Of a stretch of 48,160 bases of DNA, positions 25,316 through 33,299 are shown piece after piece. The position numbers were made by a program, and so were the translations under genes. Positions within the stretch are counted from its first letter, which is position 1, and each line of letters begins with the position of its first letter. A model generated the notes under the pieces. The model had not been told where the DNA came from and searched no databases. It saw only the letters and a program-made list of their open reading frames with translations. The DNA comes from Actinomycetota bacterium. Lineage in GTDB: Bacteria > Actinomycetota > Actinomycetes > S36-B12. The DNA is taken from the NCBI GenBank assembly GCA_016870515.1, contig VGBL01000013.1, positions 1 to 48,160 of the forward strand. The letters are read 5' to 3'.

Positions 25316-26626
25316 ATGCGCTACCGCCGCTCCCTCGCCCCGGCCCTGTGCGTGCTCCTCGCGGCCCTGGCCCTAATCGCCGCTCCCGCGACCCTCGCTC
25401 GCACCTCGATCGAGGCCGTGGCGTCGGCCCTGCGCAACGACCCCGTTTACAACGACCCCTCAGCCGAGAACGCCCTCACCCCCGGTCAGGCGAGCGACCT
25501 GCGCGACCAGATCGCCGCCACGGGTCTGCCCATCTACGTCGCGGTGCTTCCTGGCGCCGCCGCCACCGATGCCGGAGGCCCCGACGCGCTCCTGCGCGAC
25601 CTGCGTAATGCCGTCGGCCGCGAGGGCGTGTACGCCGTAATCGCCGGCAATGCCTTCCGGGCAGGCGCGACCAGCGGTTCCGTGAACGCCGTCGCCGACG
25701 ATGCCTTCCAGTCGCAGGCCTCCAACGGGCCCTTCGCTGTGCTCGAGGCCTTCGTCGCCGGAGTCGATGCGCAGTACAACGATTCGGGGCAGTCGAGCGG
25801 TGGCGACTCGTCAGCAGGGGGCGGCGGTTCATCGTGGACCGGCCTGATCATCCTGGTGGTCATCCTTGGCGGGATCGGAGCTCTCCTCTTCTTCGGCATT
25901 CGTGCAGCGCGTCGCTCGCGCGTCAAGCAACTTGTCAGCATTCGCAGCACTCTCGACGAGGACGTCACGTCGCTCGGCGAGCAGCTCGCTGCCTTCAATG
26001 TTGCCGACCCCCGCCTCGACGACACCGGGCGCGCCGATCTGCAGACGGCGCTCGACGCCTACTCCCGTGCCAGCCATGCCTCATCGCGGGCCCGGACCGA
26101 TGCCGACATCACCACTGCGACCTCCGAACTCGAGGCCGGCCGCTACGCCCTCGCATGCGTGCAGGCGCGGGTCGATGGTCGTGCGCTTCCACAGCGCCGT
26201 CCCCCATGCTTCGTGGATCCACGCCACGGCCCGAGCGAGTCCGATGTCATGTGGGCCCCCGACGGCGGTGCACCGCATCCGGTCCCGGTCTGCGCCACGT
26301 GCGCGGCCACCTTGAAGAGCGGCGCCGCCCCGCAGCCCCGCGTGGTGATGGCGGGTGGGCAGCGCGTTCCCTACTGGCGTGCCGGAGCCGACTACGCGCC
26401 CTATGCGCGCGGCTACTACTCCTCGTTTGCCGATGCCCTGCCGATGATCTTCGTCGGCACGATGCTGGCCACCGCCTTCATGCCACCGGTCGCGGGCATC
26501 TCCACGGCCGGTCCCTCGGGGGGCGCCTCCGACGGCGGCGGGTTCGGCGGCGGAGACTTCGGCGGCGGGAGCTTTGGTGGCGGCGGAGACTTCGGCGGAG
26601 ACTTCGGCGGCGGCGACTTCAGCTGA
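25316..26626 (+). CDS. Membrane protein, TPM-like N-terminus, Gly-Phe-Asp-rich tail
   Basis: 436 aa. A signal or anchor helix (LAPALCVLLAALALIAAP) leads to an extracytoplasmic domain of about 120 residues (IEAVASALRNDPVYNDPSAE, LPIYVAVLPGAA, GVYAVIAGNAF) resembling the TPM-like/DUF6676 domains of actinobacterial envelope proteins. A Gly/Ser linker, a second membrane helix (WTGLIILVVILGGIGALLFF) and a cytoplasmic helical region with a Cys pair (CATC) follow. The C-terminus is built of GGGDF-like repeats (about residues 405-436). Function unknown. ATG 25316 is leaderless; the first 36 codons of the longer open frame lie in the upstream hairpin and promoter. Confidence 0.8.
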   Translation: MRYRRSLAPALCVLLAALALIAAPATLARTSIEAVASALRNDPVYNDPSAENALTPGQASDLRDQIAATGLPIYVAVLPGAAATDAGGPDALLRDLRNAVGREGVYAVIAGNAFRAGATSGSVNAVADDAFQSQASNGPFAVLEAFVAGVDAQYNDSGQSSGGDSSAGGGGSSWTGLIILVVILGGIGALLFFGIRAARRSRVKQLVSIRSTLDEDVTSLGEQLAAFNVADPRLDDTGRADLQTALDAYSRASHASSRARTDADITTATSELEAGRYALACVQARVDGRALPQRRPPCFVDPRHGPSESDVMWAPDGGAPHPVPVCATCAATLKSGAAPQPRVVMAGGQRVPYWRAGADYAPYARGYYSSFADALPMIFVGTMLATAFMPPVAGISTAGPSGGASDGGGFGGGDFGGGSFGGGGDFGGDFGGGDFS

Positions 26627-27747
26627 AGCCTGGGCCTCGTCGCTGACGTGCAGCCGACGCGCCGCCTCGGCGATCGATCCGCTGAGGCTCAGATAGACCG
26701 CGAAGGTCGACGCCAGTTGATCGACCGTGAGCCTGGTGTCGACGGCGAGCGTGAGCGCATGAATGAGCTCGTCCGCCCGCGGCGCGACGATGACTCCCCC
26801 GATCACGATCCGCGAGGTCAGGCGGCAGAAGACCTTGACAAATCCGTGGCGCAACTCCTGCATCTTCGCCCGCGCATTGGTCGCGAGGGGAAGCATGATC
26901 GAGTCCGCGCGCACCTCGCCGGCGTCCACCTGCGCCTGTGTCGCCCCGACCGTTGCGATCTCCGGTCGCGAATACCGTGCTCGACACCGACACGCGTTCG
27001 AGGGATTGCACGGCATCGCCTAGCGCGTGCCACATGGCTGTGCGTCCCTGCATCGCCGCAACCGAAGCGGCCGGAAAGATATCCGTGCAATCTCCTGCGG
27101 CATAGACGCCACGCGCCGACGTGTGCCAGACACGATGCACCTGGATCAAGCCCCGCTCGGCCGTGGCAATGCCCGCGGCGTCCAGCCCGAGGTCCTCGGT
27201 GTTGGGGACGGAGCCGAAGGCGAGCAGGACGTGGTTGCGACTAGACACCAGGACGACCTGCGAGCCCAGGGCCTCGTAGGCGGACGCAAACTCCGCGCCG
27301 GTAACCCCGGAGCCGACGACGAGGCGCGGGGGCACCTCGGCGAGGTCGTAGAGCTGCTGCCAGGTGAGAATGCGTTCATCATCCGGCGGCGACTCGGGCA
27401 GCAGCCGCGAACGCGAACCGGTCGCAATTCGAACGACGTCGGCGGGTAGCTCGACGGAGCCCTCATCGGTGGAGACGCTGACCCGCTGCGCCGACAGCAG
27501 GCGCCCTCGGCCCTTCTGGTGACGGATTCCTTCGGCGGCAAGACGCGTCTCGATGTCATCGCTCTGGGCCGCTGCGAGGCGGCGGATGCGCTCGTTGACC
27601 ACGCTGAGATCGACGCTCAGTGCCCGGCTTTGCGGGACCTGGCCGGCGATGCCAATGCCGAGCTCGCCGATGCGGCCCGGCGCGGCAGCTGGGCCGCCTC
27701 ATGGCCGCCGGGACCTGCCCCACGATCACCACCGACGTCACCACCAC
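26627..27747 (-). pseudogene. lpdA: Decayed NAD(P)H-quinone dehydrogenase (LpdA-like flavoprotein)
   Basis: Pieces of one flavoprotein disulfide-reductase-family gene are spread over two frames. Reading leftward: VTSVVIVG, a 1-base slip, GAGPGGHEAAQL, then a jump to RIGELGIGIAGQVPQSRALS and VVNERIRRLAAAQSDDI. The segment with the FAD-domain CxxxxC is gone. LVVGSGVTGAEFASAYEALG is present, but VLVSSRNHV runs straight into LLAFGSVPNTEDL, losing the end of the NAD domain. A second frameshift near 26972 separates VSVSSTVFA from RPEIATVGATQAQVDAGEV; the dimerisation domain (ELIHALTLAVDTRLTVDQLA) then continues to SIAEAARRLH. About 365 codons remain of the 490 or so expected. It occupies the place of Rv3303c. 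Confidence 0.85.
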
Positions 27748-28271: not shown

Positions 28272-29081
28272 ATGACAGATCCGAGCGATGACCCGCAGGA
28301 AGCCGCGCTCGCGGCCGCGGCCGCCATTGCCAAGCGCACCGCAGTCCCGGCTCACGACGTTGCGGTCATCCTCGGCTCGGGCTGGGGCTTGGCCGCTGAC
28401 CTCCTCGGCACAACGGTCGCGGAGTTCCCGGCCACCGACATCCCCGGATTCGCAGAGCAATCGGCGGTGGGCCACTCGGGGCGAATTCGCAGCGTCGACG
28501 CCGATGGCCGCCCCGTTCTCGTCTTCCTTGGCCGCACGCACCTCTACGAGGGCCAGGGAATCGATGCCGTCGTGCATGCCGTGCGCACAGCGGCCGCAGC
28601 AGGGTGCCGCACCCTCGTCCTGACCAACGGTTGCGGCGGCCTGGATCCGTCGTGGAGCCCGGGCACCCCGGTCCTCATCCGTGATCACCTCAACCTCTTT
28701 GGGGTCACGCCCCTGCGTGGGGCGACCTTCGTCGACATGACCGACCTGTATTCCGCACGCCTGCGCGCGATCGTCAAGGCGATCGACCCGTCGCTGGACG
28801 AGGGTGTTTACGCGCAGTTCCTCGGCCCGCAGTTTGAAACGCCCGCCGAGATCCACATGGTGCGCGCCCTGGGTGGCACCCTCGTCGGCATGTCGACGGT
28901 GCAGGAAGCCATCGCCGCGCGCGAGGCAGGCATGGAGATCCTCGGCATCTCCCTTGTCACCAACCTGGCAGCCGGCATGACGGGCGAACCCCTGAGTCAC
29001 GAAGAGGTCATCGTGGCGGGCAATTCCGCCGCCGAGCGCATGGGCGCCCTACTGGGCGAGTTCCTGCGACGTCTGCCCTGA
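28272..29081 (+). CDS. Purine-nucleoside phosphorylase (trimeric type)
   Basis: 269 aa. Cleaves inosine, guanosine and deoxy forms with phosphate to give the base and (deoxy)ribose-1-phosphate. Phosphate loop VAVILGSGWGLAADLL, sugar/phosphate site GRTHLYEG, TLVLTNGCGGLDPSWSPGTPVLIRDHLNLFG, and the base-binding MSTVQEAIAARE and LVTNLAAGM with the Asn that selects 6-oxopurines. Residues are intact, length normal. It is the first gene of a tight unit: GNAT starts 1 base after its stop. The mycobacterial equivalent is called deoD (Rv3307). Confidence 0.94.
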   Translation: MTDPSDDPQEAALAAAAAIAKRTAVPAHDVAVILGSGWGLAADLLGTTVAEFPATDIPGFAEQSAVGHSGRIRSVDADGRPVLVFLGRTHLYEGQGIDAVVHAVRTAAAAGCRTLVLTNGCGGLDPSWSPGTPVLIRDHLNLFGVTPLRGATFVDMTDLYSARLRAIVKAIDPSLDEGVYAQFLGPQFETPAEIHMVRALGGTLVGMSTVQEAIAAREAGMEILGISLVTNLAAGMTGEPLSHEEVIVAGNSAAERMGALLGEFLRRLP

Positions 29082-29082
29082 G

Positions 29083-29574
29083 ATGCATCTCGTCGGGAGC
29101 ATCCACGGCAAGCGCCTCGAGGTGCGCGACCTCTCCCCCGACGATGCGCGGCCCGACGAGTCATCCGAATGGGACGCGTGGGACGACGACTGGCTTCCTG
29201 ACGAGGAGCAGCCCCACCAGCATCGCGCTGCCGTGATCCTCGACGGCGACATTGTCGGCACCATGTCGTGGCATGCCGTGCTCTACGGTCCGACGCGCGG
29301 CTCTCGAGCGTGGAGCATGGGCATCGGCCTTGCTCCCGAATGCCGAGGGAAAGGCATCGGGTCGGAGGCACAGCGCATGCTCAGCGAACACCTGCTCCAG
29401 ACGGCCCACCGGGTCGAGGCATCGACAGATGTCGACAACATCGCCGAGCAGCGCTCGCTGGAGAGGGCCGGATTCCAGCGAGAAGGAGTCCTTCGCGGAG
29501 CCCAGCGTCGTGCTGACGGCGCCAACCACGACCTGGTCATGTACTCGCGCACCCCGGATACGCTGACTGGGTGA
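29083..29574 (+). CDS. GNAT family N-acetyltransferase
   Basis: 163 aa. Acetyl-CoA-dependent transferase fold: SMGIGLAPECRGKGIGSEAQRML carries the Q/RxxGxG/A pyrophosphate loop, followed by VEASTDVDNIAEQRSLERAGF and a closing strand. The N-terminus is unusually acidic (DESSEWDAWDDDWLPDEE). Substrate unknown. It starts 1 base after the phosphorylase stop and overlaps the next start by 4 bases (GTGA), so it is co-translated with nucleoside and aldehyde-dehydrogenase-like genes. Confidence 0.88.
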   Translation: MHLVGSIHGKRLEVRDLSPDDARPDESSEWDAWDDDWLPDEEQPHQHRAAVILDGDIVGTMSWHAVLYGPTRGSRAWSMGIGLAPECRGKGIGSEAQRMLSEHLLQTAHRVEASTDVDNIAEQRSLERAGFQREGVLRGAQRRADGANHDLVMYSRTPDTLTG

Positions 29575-31007
29575 TCGCCGCGCTTCATCCCCAGTCACGG
29601 GCAGACGTCGACATCGCCCCGCACTACGGCCTCTTCATCGATGGAGACTTCGTCGATCCCATCGACGGCGCGTCGTTCAAGACGATCAATCCAGCCACCG
29701 AGGAGGTGCTCGCCAGCATCAGCGAGGCCGGCGCGGCGGACGTCGATCGAGCCGTAAGGGCAGCTCGCAGCGCCTACAAGGCGACATGGTCGCGCATGCC
29801 GGGCGCCGAGCGCGCCAAGTACCTCTACCGGCTCGCCCGGATCATCCAGGAGCGTTCACGCGAACTAGCCGTGCTGGAGACTCTCGATCACGGAAAGCCG
29901 ATCAGGGGATCGCTCGATGCCGACGTGCCCCTGGCGGCCGCGCACTTCTTCTACAACGCAGGCTGGGCCGACAAGCTCGAGCATGCGGGCTTCGGAGCTA
30001 AGCCGCGTCCCTGCGCAGTAGCGGCTGTGATCATCCCCTGGAACTCTCCGCTGCTGGCGCTCGCTGGCAAGATTGCGCCCGCGCTGGCGACGGGCAACAC
30101 GGTCGTGCTGAAGCCTGCCGAGACCACGCCGCTCACAGCATTGGCCTTCGCAGACATCTGCCAACAGGCCGAACTCCCCCCGGGAGTCGTCAACATCGTC
30201 ACTGGAGGCGAGCAGACCGGCCGCCTCCTGGTCGAGCACCCCGACATCGACACGATTGCGTTCACCGGGTCGACGCAGATGGGCGAGTCCATTCAGCGCG
30301 CAATCGGGGGCACTCGCAAAGGGCTCACCCTCCAACTCGCTGGCACGGTAGCCAACATCGTCTTCGACGACGCACCCATCGACGAAGCGGTCGAAGCAAT
30401 CGTCGGCGGCCTCCTCGTCAACACTGGTCCCGTTCCGTTCGCTGACTTGCGCCTCGTGCTTCAGGACTCCATTCACGATGACGTGCTCGAACGGCTCAAG
30501 GATCGACTCCAGACGCTGCACCTCGGCGATCCACTCGACAAGAGCACCGATATCGGAGCCATCAATTCCGCCGAACTTCATGCCAGGATCGACGAGTTCG
30601 TACGCTCAGGTGACACCGAGGATGCCGAGCGCTGGTCAGCGCCGTGCAGCATCCCCGATCGCGGCTGGTGGTATCCGCCCACGATCTTCACGGGCGTTGC
30701 CCAGGCCCACCGAATCGCTCGCGAGGAGATCTTCGGGCCCTTTCTGTCCATACTGACGTTCCACGCGCCCAACGAAGCTGTCGAGATAGCCAACGACAGT
30801 CCCTACGGCCTTGCGGCGGGGGTATGGACGCGGGAGGGAGCGCGCGCCCTGTGGACGGCGTCACGATTACGAGCGGGCACCGTGTGGGCCAACACCTTCA
30901 ACGTGGTCGATCCGGCCTCCCCCGTCGGCGGCTTCAAGGAGTCCGGGTTCGGTCGTGAGGGTGGACGCCAGGGCCTGGCGGCCTTCCTGAGGACGGACGT
31001 GATCTGA
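29571..31007 (+). CDS. Aldehyde dehydrogenase fold protein, catalytic Glu and Cys lost
   Basis: 478 aa, full-length ALDH fold with cofactor-binding residues kept: IIPWNSPLL (Asn158), VVLKPAE (Lys181), FTGSTQMG, and EEIFGPFL late in the protein. The general base and nucleophile are missing. The usual LELGGK motif reads LQLAGT (Gln255), and the usual GQ/HVCCAG loop reads GPVPFADLRL (Pro289, Phe290 where Cys should be). The frame is unbroken and neighbours are conserved, so this looks like a maintained pseudoenzyme rather than decay. Overlaps the GNAT stop by 4 bases; the next gene starts in its stop codon. Confidence 0.88.
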   Translation: MIAALHPQSRADVDIAPHYGLFIDGDFVDPIDGASFKTINPATEEVLASISEAGAADVDRAVRAARSAYKATWSRMPGAERAKYLYRLARIIQERSRELAVLETLDHGKPIRGSLDADVPLAAAHFFYNAGWADKLEHAGFGAKPRPCAVAAVIIPWNSPLLALAGKIAPALATGNTVVLKPAETTPLTALAFADICQQAELPPGVVNIVTGGEQTGRLLVEHPDIDTIAFTGSTQMGESIQRAIGGTRKGLTLQLAGTVANIVFDDAPIDEAVEAIVGGLLVNTGPVPFADLRLVLQDSIHDDVLERLKDRLQTLHLGDPLDKSTDIGAINSAELHARIDEFVRSGDTEDAERWSAPCSIPDRGWWYPPTIFTGVAQAHRIAREEIFGPFLSILTFHAPNEAVEIANDSPYGLAAGVWTREGARALWTASRLRAGTVWANTFNVVDPASPVGGFKESGFGREGGRQGLAAFLRTDVI

Positions 31008-31876
31008 TGAATGGCCGCACTGATGTCCGCAAGACCTACAAGCTGTATATCGACGGAGCATTTCCCCGCGGTGAGAGCGGCCGCACCTACGCGATCACCG
31101 ATGCCAAGGGCCGCTTTATCGCCAACGCCTCCCTGGCCTCTCGCAAGGATGTCCGCAATGCCGTCTCCGCAGCCTGCGCCGCCCAGCCAGAATGGTGGCA
31201 GTCCACCGCTGTTGATCGCGGCCGGGTGCTGTTCAGCATCTCCGACCTGCTCGAGCAACGTCGAGCCTCGTTCGAGGACGAACTCGGCAAGGCCGAGGGG
31301 CTTCCTGGGCGAAAGGCCGCATCGGCCGTGGATGCGGCGATCGATCGCTGGGTCTGGTACGCCGGCTGGTCCGACAAAATCGCCCAGGTGCTCGGCTCGA
31401 TCAATCCGGTCGCCGGTCCCTACCTCAACGTCTCGCTCCCGGAGCCCGTGGGCGTGGTCGCCGCGATCGCGCCGCAGCGGTCATCGCTCCTCGGCCTCGT
31501 GAGCGTCGTCGCGCCGATCATCGTGGGCGGCAACGCCTGCGTCGTCGTCGCCTCGCAGGATCGACCGCTTCCGGCCATCGCACTGGCGGAGGTCCTGGCC
31601 ACCTCGGACCTGCCCGGTGGCGTCGTCAATATCCTGACGGGGCGCCCGACCGAGATCGGCCCGTGGCTCGCCTCTCATCTCGACGTGCAGGGCCTCGACC
31701 TCACCGGAGTCGACGACGATGCCTTGGCGACCGAGATGCAGGTGTCCGCCGCCGTCAACGTCAAGCGCGTCTTGAATCCGCCGAAGCGAGAGCCCGATTG
31801 GACGGAGGATCCCGGACTCGGACGCATCAGGCACTTTGTCGACACCACGACGGTCTGGTACCCGACCGGTGCCTGA
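31007..31876 (+). CDS. Truncated aldehyde dehydrogenase-like protein (no catalytic domain)
   Basis: 289 aa matching only the N-terminal, NAD-binding half of aldehyde dehydrogenases: KLYIDGAFPRGESGRTYAI, ALASRKDV-type linker, WVWYAGWSDKIAQVLG, EPVGVVAAIAPQRSSLLGLV, SDLPGGVVNILTG. The expected PWN is PQR (159) and the cofactor Lys of VLKPSE is absent (VVVASQ). After about residue 245 the sequence departs from the fold and ends VDTTTVWYPTGA, with no cysteine-bearing domain. Its ATG overlaps the previous stop (TGATG), so the two ALDH-like proteins are co-translated and may form a hetero-oligomer. Convergent with the small membrane protein gene. Confidence 0.82.
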   Translation: MNGRTDVRKTYKLYIDGAFPRGESGRTYAITDAKGRFIANASLASRKDVRNAVSAACAAQPEWWQSTAVDRGRVLFSISDLLEQRRASFEDELGKAEGLPGRKAASAVDAAIDRWVWYAGWSDKIAQVLGSINPVAGPYLNVSLPEPVGVVAAIAPQRSSLLGLVSVVAPIIVGGNACVVVASQDRPLPAIALAEVLATSDLPGGVVNILTGRPTEIGPWLASHLDVQGLDLTGVDDDALATEMQVSAAVNVKRVLNPPKREPDWTEDPGLGRIRHFVDTTTVWYPTGA

Positions 31877-31924: not shown

Positions 31925-32206
31925 CTAGTGGTCCTGCTTGCGCTTGCGGATGCGAAGCACGATGACGGTGCCCACCGCCGCTAACGCGACAACGCCGAGC
32001 ACGATGCCCACTCGGGGAGCCCATCTCTTGGACTCCTCGAGAGCTTCGGTCGCCTGCAGGATGATGTCGTCAGCCTTGCCCAACACGTCGTCGGCAACCG
32101 AGAGCACAGAATCCGCCTGATCGATAACGCCGCGTACGCGGCCCAGACCCTCGCGCAGGTCCTCGACGCGCAGCGAGGTGATGCTCAATTCCTCCATGAG
32201 GCTCAT
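31925..32206 (-). CDS. Small C-terminally anchored membrane protein
   Basis: 93 aa, not recognised. Residues 1-62 form one long amphipathic helix with heptad-like Leu/Val/Ile spacing (LREGLGRVRGVIDQADSVLS, LGKADDIILQATEALEESK), likely a coiled coil. A single membrane helix (VGIVLGVVALAAVGTVIVL) and a basic cytoplasmic tail (RIRKRKQDH) follow. It lies 16 bases downstream of add on the same strand, so probably co-transcribed. Confidence 0.7.
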   Translation of the reverse strand: MSLMEELSITSLRVEDLREGLGRVRGVIDQADSVLSVADDVLGKADDIILQATEALEESKRWAPRVGIVLGVVALAAVGTVIVLRIRKRKQDH

Positions 32207-32222: not shown

Positions 32223-33299
32223 TTAGGCGGCGTGTGCCGCGTAGGCCGGTTTGATGACCCCGTCGATCAGGGCCAGACGTTCATCGAAGGGGATGAATGC
32301 ACTCTTCATTGCATTGACGGTGAGCCAACGCAGGTCATTGATCCCCCAGCCAAAGGCGTCGCACACCTGCATCATCTCGCGAGTCATGGTCGTATCGCTG
32401 ACCAGTCGATTGTCTGTGTTGAGCGTCACCCGGAAGCGCAGGTCGGACAGGAGTCCGATCGGATGCTCCGCGATGCTGGCCGCGGCTCCCGTCATGACAT
32501 TGGACGTCGGGCACATCTCAAGGGGAATTCGCCTATCGCGCACATAGGCGGCCAGTGGACCGAGGGCGACGGTGCCATCGGGACGCCGCTCGATGTCATC
32601 CACTATGCGGACGCCGTGCCCGAGTCGGTCGGCGCCACACCACTGGATGGCCTCCCAGATGCTCGGCAGCCCGAAGGCCTCGCCGGCGTGGATGGTGAAG
32701 TGGGCATTCTCTCGACGCAGGAACTCGAAGGCATCCAGGTGGCGGGTCGGTGGGAACCCTGCTTCACGGCCCGCGATGTCGAAGCCGACGACTCCCCTGT
32801 CGCGATACTCGACGACGAGGTCGGCGATCTGTCGGCCCTGGGCTGATGTGCGCATGGCGGTGAGGAGCGTGCCCACGCGAATCCGACCGCCGGAGGCCAC
32901 CTCGCCATCGCGGAATCCGGCCAAGACGGCATCGACCACCTCCTCGCGCGTCAGCCCACGCTCAGTGTGGAGTTCGGGCGCGAACCGCACCTCGGCATAG
33001 ACCACGCCGTCGGTCGCAAGATCCTGCGCGCACTCCGAGGCGACTCGGGCCAGCGCATCCGTCGTCTGCATGACGCCCACCGTGTGACGGAAAGGCTCGA
33101 GGTAGCGCTCTAGGGAGCCGGAATTGCCAGCGTCGCGGAACCACTGGGCAAGCTCGCGGGGTTCCTCGGCCGGCAGATCGGCGTATCCGGTCTCGGCCGC
33201 GAGTTCGGCCACCGTCTCGGGCCGCAAGCCGCCATCAAGATGGTCATGCAGCAGCACCTTGGGAAGGTCCCGGATCGTGGACTCGTCCAGGGACGCCAT
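32223..33299 (-). CDS. add: Adenosine deaminase
   Basis: 358 aa zinc enzyme converting adenosine and deoxyadenosine to inosine forms, which the phosphorylase 3 kb away can then cleave. Zinc and catalytic motifs are complete: LLHDHLDGG (His18, His20), TIHAGEAFG with the catalytic Glu, [10 protein letters not shown], and [16 protein letters not shown] holding the metal Asp pair position (Asp-Asn variant common in actinomycetes). ATG 33299 is leaderless after TAGATT; that hexamer contains the stop codon of the upstream glutamate dehydrogenase gene. Confidence 0.95.

Follow-up and report, generated by a model that had tools for sequence, protein, structure and literature searches.

The gene pair and its family

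In a 48,160-nucleotide stretch of an actinobacterial draft genome (Actinomycetota bacterium, assembly GCA_016870515.1, contig VGBL01000013.1; the whole stretch is called the window below), two adjacent genes encode proteins of the aldehyde dehydrogenase (ALDH) superfamily, here named P0001 and P0002. As listed in Table 1, they follow genes for a purine-nucleoside phosphorylase (PNP) and a GNAT acetyltransferase; all four genes lie on the plus strand, each overlapping or almost touching the next, with stop and start codons sharing bases as GTGA at 29571-29574 (GNAT/P0001) and as TGATG at 31005-31009 (P0001/P0002). A preliminary description of this DNA, made from the letters alone, had reported both reading frames with their coordinates, their lack of interruptions, the overlapping codons and the PNP and GNAT neighbours, and all of this was confirmed. 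The source genome comprises 2.4 Mb in 61 contigs, is 96.7% complete and contains 17 ALDH-family matches including the pair.

Table 1. Features at the locus, with positions in the window.
Feature	Position	Strand	Observation
PNP, first gene of the run	28272-29081	+	TIGR01698, 309.1 bits (cut-off 302.6)
GNAT acetyltransferase, between PNP and the ALDH pair	29083-29574	+	weak NCBIfam acetyltransferase matches, all below the cut-offs
Apparent deletion scar, start and first codons resembling the former deoC	29571-29588	+	joins the ALDH gene in frame at about its codon 9
P0001, assigned as the N-terminal, catalytic part of an ALDH16 with erased active site	29571-31007	+	478 aa, GTG start
Codon 255, general base Glu replaced by Gln	30333-30335	+	Glu in 101/101 other distinct sequences and in 55/55 further loci
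Former catalytic Cys loop, codons 283-293; Cys codon 289 now Pro	30417-30449	+	Cys in 101/101 other distinct sequences and in 55/55 further loci
P0002, assigned as the ALDH16 C-terminal domain, separate gene	31007-31876	+	289 aa
93-aa protein, between the pair and the adenosine deaminase gene	31925-32206	-	no NCBIfam match
Adenosine deaminase, convergent neighbour, rate control	32223-33299	-	NF006847, 593.6 bits (cut-off 412)
lpdA (NAD(P)H-quinone dehydrogenase), apparently a true pseudogene	26619-27602 and 26081-27016	-	PRK07845

Because the best PDB matches of both proteins are to the ALDH16 of Loktanella, and the modelled fold of P0002 agrees, P0001 and P0002 are, as judged from sequence and predicted structure, the two parts of an ALDH16 encoded as two genes. 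Residues 18-475 of P0001 align with residues 32-477 of 6mvu/6mvr at 475 bits (next ALDH, 361), and residues 7-289 of P0002 align with residues 499-767 of 6mvr/6mvu, up to their last residue. The AF2 model of P0002 (pLDDT 91) gave 6mvu, 6mvs and 6mvr as best fold matches, at 1.6-1.9 Å over 283-284 columns; the other ALDHs in that list align over only ~247-260 columns. The second protein had been taken for the N-terminal half of an ALDH, a view that its alignment with the C-terminal domain of ALDH16 overturns, and the cofactor Lys and Asn that it was said to have lost are also missing at these places from the relatives read and from the C-terminal domain of the Loktanella protein. Thus, an N-terminal part closest to ALDH16 is found in P0001 and the extra C-terminal Rossmann-type domain without catalytic residues in P0002. 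Since ALDH16 is a single polypeptide and the window has two genes with overlapping stop and start, we call the pair a two-gene variant rather than a plain ALDH16.

This division into two genes is common among the relatives. The C-terminal gene lies just downstream of the ALDH gene in 79 of 80 named loci, at an estimated spacing of -5 to 114 bases, the remaining locus (L099) ends at a contig edge, and fused genes were found in none of the 80. A P0002 match at E < 1e-50 was present in 33 of the 59 genomes of a first search (the source genome counted), and one at E 1e-45 or better in 92 of 166 genomes of the order. The proteobacterial copies examined were all fused (8/8; 772-793 aa) and carry the Cys and Glu. 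In the ALDH16-type dimer, according to the portions of PMC8160307 available to us, the C-terminal domain is packed as a mock partner. The two proteins of the window probably form one complex, which is the part of the earlier proposal of a tandem dead-ALDH complex that stands; the idea of two dead ALDHs does not, as only P0001 has lost an active site.

The active site and the neighbouring deoC

Bacterial ALDH16 proteins have a catalytic Cys and Glu. In P0001 these are replaced by Pro289 and Gln255, respectively, and PWN158, K181/E184 and E386/F388 are kept, so that the preliminary description was right in seeing a dead ALDH with its Cys loop gone and its cofactor residues preserved. In order to place this loss, the active site was read in two surveys. 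The first covered 32 pair regions, 30 of them readable at the active site; the second covered 58 further loci of the order (57 genomes), with the first partner readable in 57 of these loci and readable as far as the active site in 55. Both residues were kept in 30/30 and 55/55 readable loci (85/85 in the order). The Cys motif was also kept in all 80 named loci, partly from the same species; the motif expression used for Glu in that survey was too narrow, missing 46 of the 80, and was replaced by alignments. Within the genus, which comprises 11 genomes, eight others have a readable pair and all are intact at the active site, the exceptions being G003, in which a fragment of the second gene is all that is present, and G002, which has no pair. 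The dead catalytic centre was seen in the window genome only, and the two-gene pair itself is widespread. A catalytic loss common to a clade, which it had been proposed to check, is ruled out by these intact relatives.

The change in P0001 goes well beyond the two residues that had been thought to be exactly those lost. In an alignment of 102 distinct sequences, with columns at least 99% conserved among the 101 others, P0001 departs at 37 of 200 conserved columns (next sequence, 4; median, 0), and P0002 departs at 7 of 52 (next sequence, 2). The P0002 changes at conserved positions cluster at residues 69-88 (within 57-88, window 31175-31270), perhaps the face towards the altered catalytic subunit.

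The changes in P0001 fall heavily on the substrate pocket. Using ALDH2 residue numbers, assigned by motif offsets, F170, M174, W177, E268, F296, C302, C303, F459 and F465 are replaced, and N169, K192, E195, E399 and F401 are kept. Thus, 9 of 11 invariant pocket and catalytic residues have changed, compared to 28 of 189 other invariant residues (Fisher P 4e-6). If a wider list of residues, taken from a docking table for ALDH2, is used instead, the counts are 9/13 and 28/187 (P 4e-5), and removal of C302, C303 and E268 from that list still leaves 6 of 10 changed (P 0.002). The pocket pattern was noticed before it was tested, and the residue lists themselves are independent of these data; as far as the consulted portion of PMC11112092 goes, the pocket list agrees with its Table 3, the docking table. 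At six pocket positions a large residue has given way to a small one (F159S, M163A, W166G, F283V, F446V and F452V, in window numbering), and C290F goes in the opposite direction. Clustering of changes along the P0001 sequence was not significant (15 neighbour pairs vs 11.8, p 0.13). Overall, there is good evidence that the catalytic pocket was specifically released from constraint.

DeoC cleaves deoxyribose 5-phosphate to glyceraldehyde 3-phosphate and acetaldehyde, and deoxynucleosides reach deoxyribose 5-phosphate via PNP and phosphomutase. The genes upstream of the pair were surveyed in 112 fetched loci, leaving out three that were too short, four duplicates and one without the ALDH gene; some species are represented twice. 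In all 104 readable loci deoC lies upstream of the pair in the same orientation, the matches being 30-108 bases apart, and 85 of the 104 have a phosphomutase match. A PNP match was present in 63 of the 112 fetched loci, and a GNAT match lies upstream of the pair on the same strand in G001, G004, G007, G009 and G010 and before deoC in G008. The association extends to the fused form, since deoC directly precedes ALDH16 in all eight annotated proteobacterial plasmid records fetched (of 30 listed and 2,282 matching), four of which also have ribokinase and aldose epimerase; a ninth fetched record (Nonomuraea) has no annotation at the place concerned.

Within the genus, deoC of the ALDH-linked type was found in all eight relatives with a readable pair (in G008, on contigs ending inside the ALDH gene). 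The gene order in G001 is GNAT, deoC, P0001-like and P0002-like, and that in G008 is biotin carboxylase, TPM, lpdA, GGCT, PNP, GNAT, deoC and the start of the ALDH gene, which is the order of the window except for deoC. No deoC remnant was detected in the window (best E 1.2). In G001 the beginning of deoC overlaps the stop codon of the GNAT gene, and in the window the GTG start of the ALDH gene does the same. This GTG and the next five codons have a weak likeness to the beginning of deoC, after which the reading frame continues unshifted into the counterpart of ALDH codon 9 onward. At this place the window has 18 bases and G001 has 973. Taken from these sequence comparisons, deoC was apparently lost from between the GNAT and ALDH genes through an in-frame deletion. 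Among the loci read at both places, the sole locus without deoC is also the sole locus without the active site. The genome has another deoC, of another type, on contig C32 (L196, 674-5505), in a run of amidase, uridine phosphorylase, deoC and phosphomutase, and copies related to this run occur in G004 and G010. The G004 copy of this second deoC carries an in-frame TAG.

Several observations concern the surroundings of the pair. The lpdA gene of the window lacks a detectable counterpart of the first 72-85 residues, has an internal deletion of ~50 residues and continues its last quarter in another frame; the open frames in G005 and G008 are 490 and 488 residues long. The 93-aa protein next to the pair has matches at E 1e-12 only in loci of the window's genus (7 distinct). 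Two contigs of G008 (C137 and C138; L199 and L200) hold two versions of one region, with PNP 85% and 77% identical to that of the window, which suggests that this assembly holds two strains. The named loci closest to P0001 are from an uncultured actinobacterium and Candidatus Nanopelagicales. Four loci titled Bifidobacterium breve (L078, L079, L101 and L147) resemble those of Nanopelagicales-type actinobacteria, and their labels are apparently wrong.

Selection, drift and competing explanations

The selection acting on the pair was estimated with a branch codon model (our own script, 11 genomes). On the window branch omega was 0.077 for P0001 compared to 0.027 elsewhere (2 dlnL 18.5; against omega 1, 64.3), and 0.054 for P0002 compared to 0.037 elsewhere (2 dlnL 1.3; against omega 1, 43.7). 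Three other branches gave 0.014-0.050 for P0001 and 0.010-0.077 for P0002, so the value for P0002 is not unusual and that for P0001 is the highest. Each omega is a branch mean that includes the time before the loss, and is compatible with a short neutral spell at the end of the branch. Neither gene has a stop or frameshift, and no indel was found relative to G001 or G008 in P0001 (for G008, from residue 50 on) or in P0002. The GC content at third codon positions (GC3) and the 4-fold divergence of the pair are similar to those of the neighbouring genes, ruling out codon-usage decay or an odd synonymous rate. Overall, there is moderate evidence that the pair is still under selection.

As a rate control we used adenosine deaminase, in which 0 of 112 invariant columns have changed in the window copy and, at variable columns, the window is about half as far from G001 as five other genus members are. 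The resulting rate scale was 0.52; judged by eye, other genes gave ~0.6 (GDH) and ~1 (GNAT), and GNAT, PNP and GGCT had too few or no reference sequences to serve as controls. An argument against neutrality from the unaccelerated variable columns of the pair was dropped, as adenosine deaminase puts the window closer to G001 than five of the six other genus members tested.

We consider the following course of events, in which the aldehyde source was most likely lost first and catalysis afterwards. In the relatives, where the gene link is constant, the two-subunit ALDH16 would oxidise DeoC-derived acetaldehyde with NAD+. On the window lineage, deoC, now absent from between the GNAT and ALDH genes, would have been deleted, and the substrate pocket and catalytic residues would then have been freed from constraint and erased. 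The gene meanwhile kept a continuous frame, the NAD-contact residues and its partner gene. By a narrow balance of probability, the nucleoside operon would thus still encode the pair as a complex that binds NAD without catalysing a reaction, comparable in bacteria to the human pseudoenzyme ALDH16A1.

The principal rival, a serious possibility to which we give less credence, is that the pair is in early decay, having become useless after the loss of deoC and having drifted for a short time without selection, its frames open by chance. A number of results weigh on this side and against a maintained complex. At scale 0.52 the excess of changes outside the pocket is spread evenly over invariant, intermediate and variable columns and is of similar strength in both subunits (P0001, 12.6% of codons, fit p 0.20; P0002, 10.8%, fit p 0.91); scales of 0.4 and 0.6 also fit uniform drift, and by our own scaling both subunits change ~2-2.7 times faster than expected. 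By simple arithmetic, an equal mean omega would result if the pair had evolved neutrally for ~5% of the branch. Changes have struck the NAD-contact residues as often as other conserved residues (2/16 vs 26/173). Codons that need at least two base changes make up no larger share of the changed conserved codons (6/37) than of the other changed codons (6/42), and thus give no sign of special age. The loss is known from one genome only, lpdA nearby is broken, and the AF2 model of P0001 is poor (pLDDT 71; fold matches at 10-11 Å), with no control model. Moreover, possession of the second deoC is not a sufficient explanation of the loss, because G004 and G010 carry it alongside the first deoC and an ALDH16 with an intact active site.

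On the other side, if the pocket had changed no faster than the remaining invariant sites, its figure of 9/11 would have a probability of 2e-6, so that uniform drift would need a phase in which catalysis alone was free. Neutral drift would require ~91 substitutions in P0001 and ~47 in P0002, for which the chance of meeting no stop is 0.067 and 0.246, respectively, and that of meeting no indel as well is lower under the indel ratios that we assumed. Uniform drift also fails for P0001 at scales of at least 0.8 (p 0.007 at 0.8 and 7e-5 at 1.0) and for P0002 at 1.0 (p 0.003), and the verdict on it therefore depends on the rate scale. In essence, the intact frames and the pocket-focused change favour a maintained pseudoenzyme, and the otherwise even relaxation of both subunits and the broken neighbour favour a pseudogene pair, which leaves the maintained non-catalytic complex somewhat ahead of the open-frame pseudogenes. 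The preliminary description had named intact close relatives together with neutral evolution of this copy as the outcome that would speak against it; the relatives are intact, and neutrality is neither established nor excluded, given no stop or indel, omega far below 1 and, at the adenosine deaminase scale, even change outside the pocket.

Three other explanations carry much less weight. The six large-to-small pocket changes, together with the NAD-contact residues, could point to a pocket rebuilt for another reaction or ligand, in a protein still active but not as an ALDH. C290F runs the other way, and the new residues are common to no relative, so that no new constraint can be demonstrated; we regard a new enzyme as improbable. 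An assembly or sequencing artefact might be suspected, as the species is represented by a single draft genome, but the frames are intact, synonymous divergence, GC3 and adenosine deaminase are normal, bootstrap support for the grouping of the pair with G001 and G008 is 100%, and errors would not aim at the pocket, which makes an artefact very unlikely. Lower still we place two separate dead ALDHs, one of them a truncated half, kept as a structural pair: both proteins are of the ALDH superfamily and adjacent, but the match of P0002 to the ALDH16 C-terminal domain runs through to the end of that domain, and in relatives a pair whose first partner has an intact active site is the rule.

Relation to known systems

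In the portions of the open-access literature that our search reached, neither a paper stating a link between deoC and ALDH16 nor a physiological role of ALDH16 was found, despite its solved structure; an aldehyde dehydrogenase and deoxyribose-phosphate aldolase are both mentioned in PMC4207490, on microcompartment loci. Since deoC and ALDH16 were constantly paired in the loci read, the family now has a directly testable substrate, acetaldehyde from deoxyribose 5-phosphate, and such a role beside DeoC, if true, would give this enigmatic family its ancestral job. Seen in two phyla, the link is a more general result that reaches beyond the window pair. The window itself can be regarded as a natural experiment, a young case of an enzyme subunit becoming a pseudoenzyme or a pseudogene. 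The most far-reaching statement, that the two-gene ALDH16, its aldehyde source lost, has converged on human ALDH16A1 and is maintained within a purine-salvage operon as an NAD-binding regulator, and that ALDH16 across bacteria is the dedicated acetaldehyde dehydrogenase of DeoC, we put forward as speculative and, taken whole, rather unlikely.

Among characterised proteins, the Loktanella ALDH16 (6mvr, 6mvs, 6mvt and 6mvu) is homologous to P0001 and P0002 over their full length. It is one chain, whereas the window has two genes, with the Cys, the Glu and most pocket residues replaced and deoC gone. The two-gene ALDH16 of other Actinomycetota (L039-L150 and L205-L262) has the same gene order as the window; among the named loci the identity is 61-80% for the first partners and 45-80% for the second, and it reaches 81% in the survey of 32 pair regions. 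Unlike the window, these loci keep Cys and Glu wherever readable and have deoC upstream wherever readable. With respect to the DeoC pathway, the window has the PNP neighbour, to which the relatives add deoC and often a phosphomutase match; in the window the deoC of this run is lost, and another lies on contig C32 with uridine phosphorylase and phosphomutase. According to the consulted portions of PMC10650815 and PMC8160307, human ALDH16A1 is a pseudoenzyme, an ALDH16 without catalytic residues the function of which is unclear, and in lacking them it is like the window pair. Both have a purine context, a suggested link to HPRT1 and gout for the human protein and the PNP and adenosine deaminase neighbours in the window. 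The human protein is said in these portions to lack all three catalytic residues, whereas P0001 keeps the Asn of PWN. The losses are separate, that of the window having occurred in one bacterial genome and in an ALDH16 of two genes, and the parallel with ALDH16A1 is a likeness of outcome and not a shared descent of the loss.

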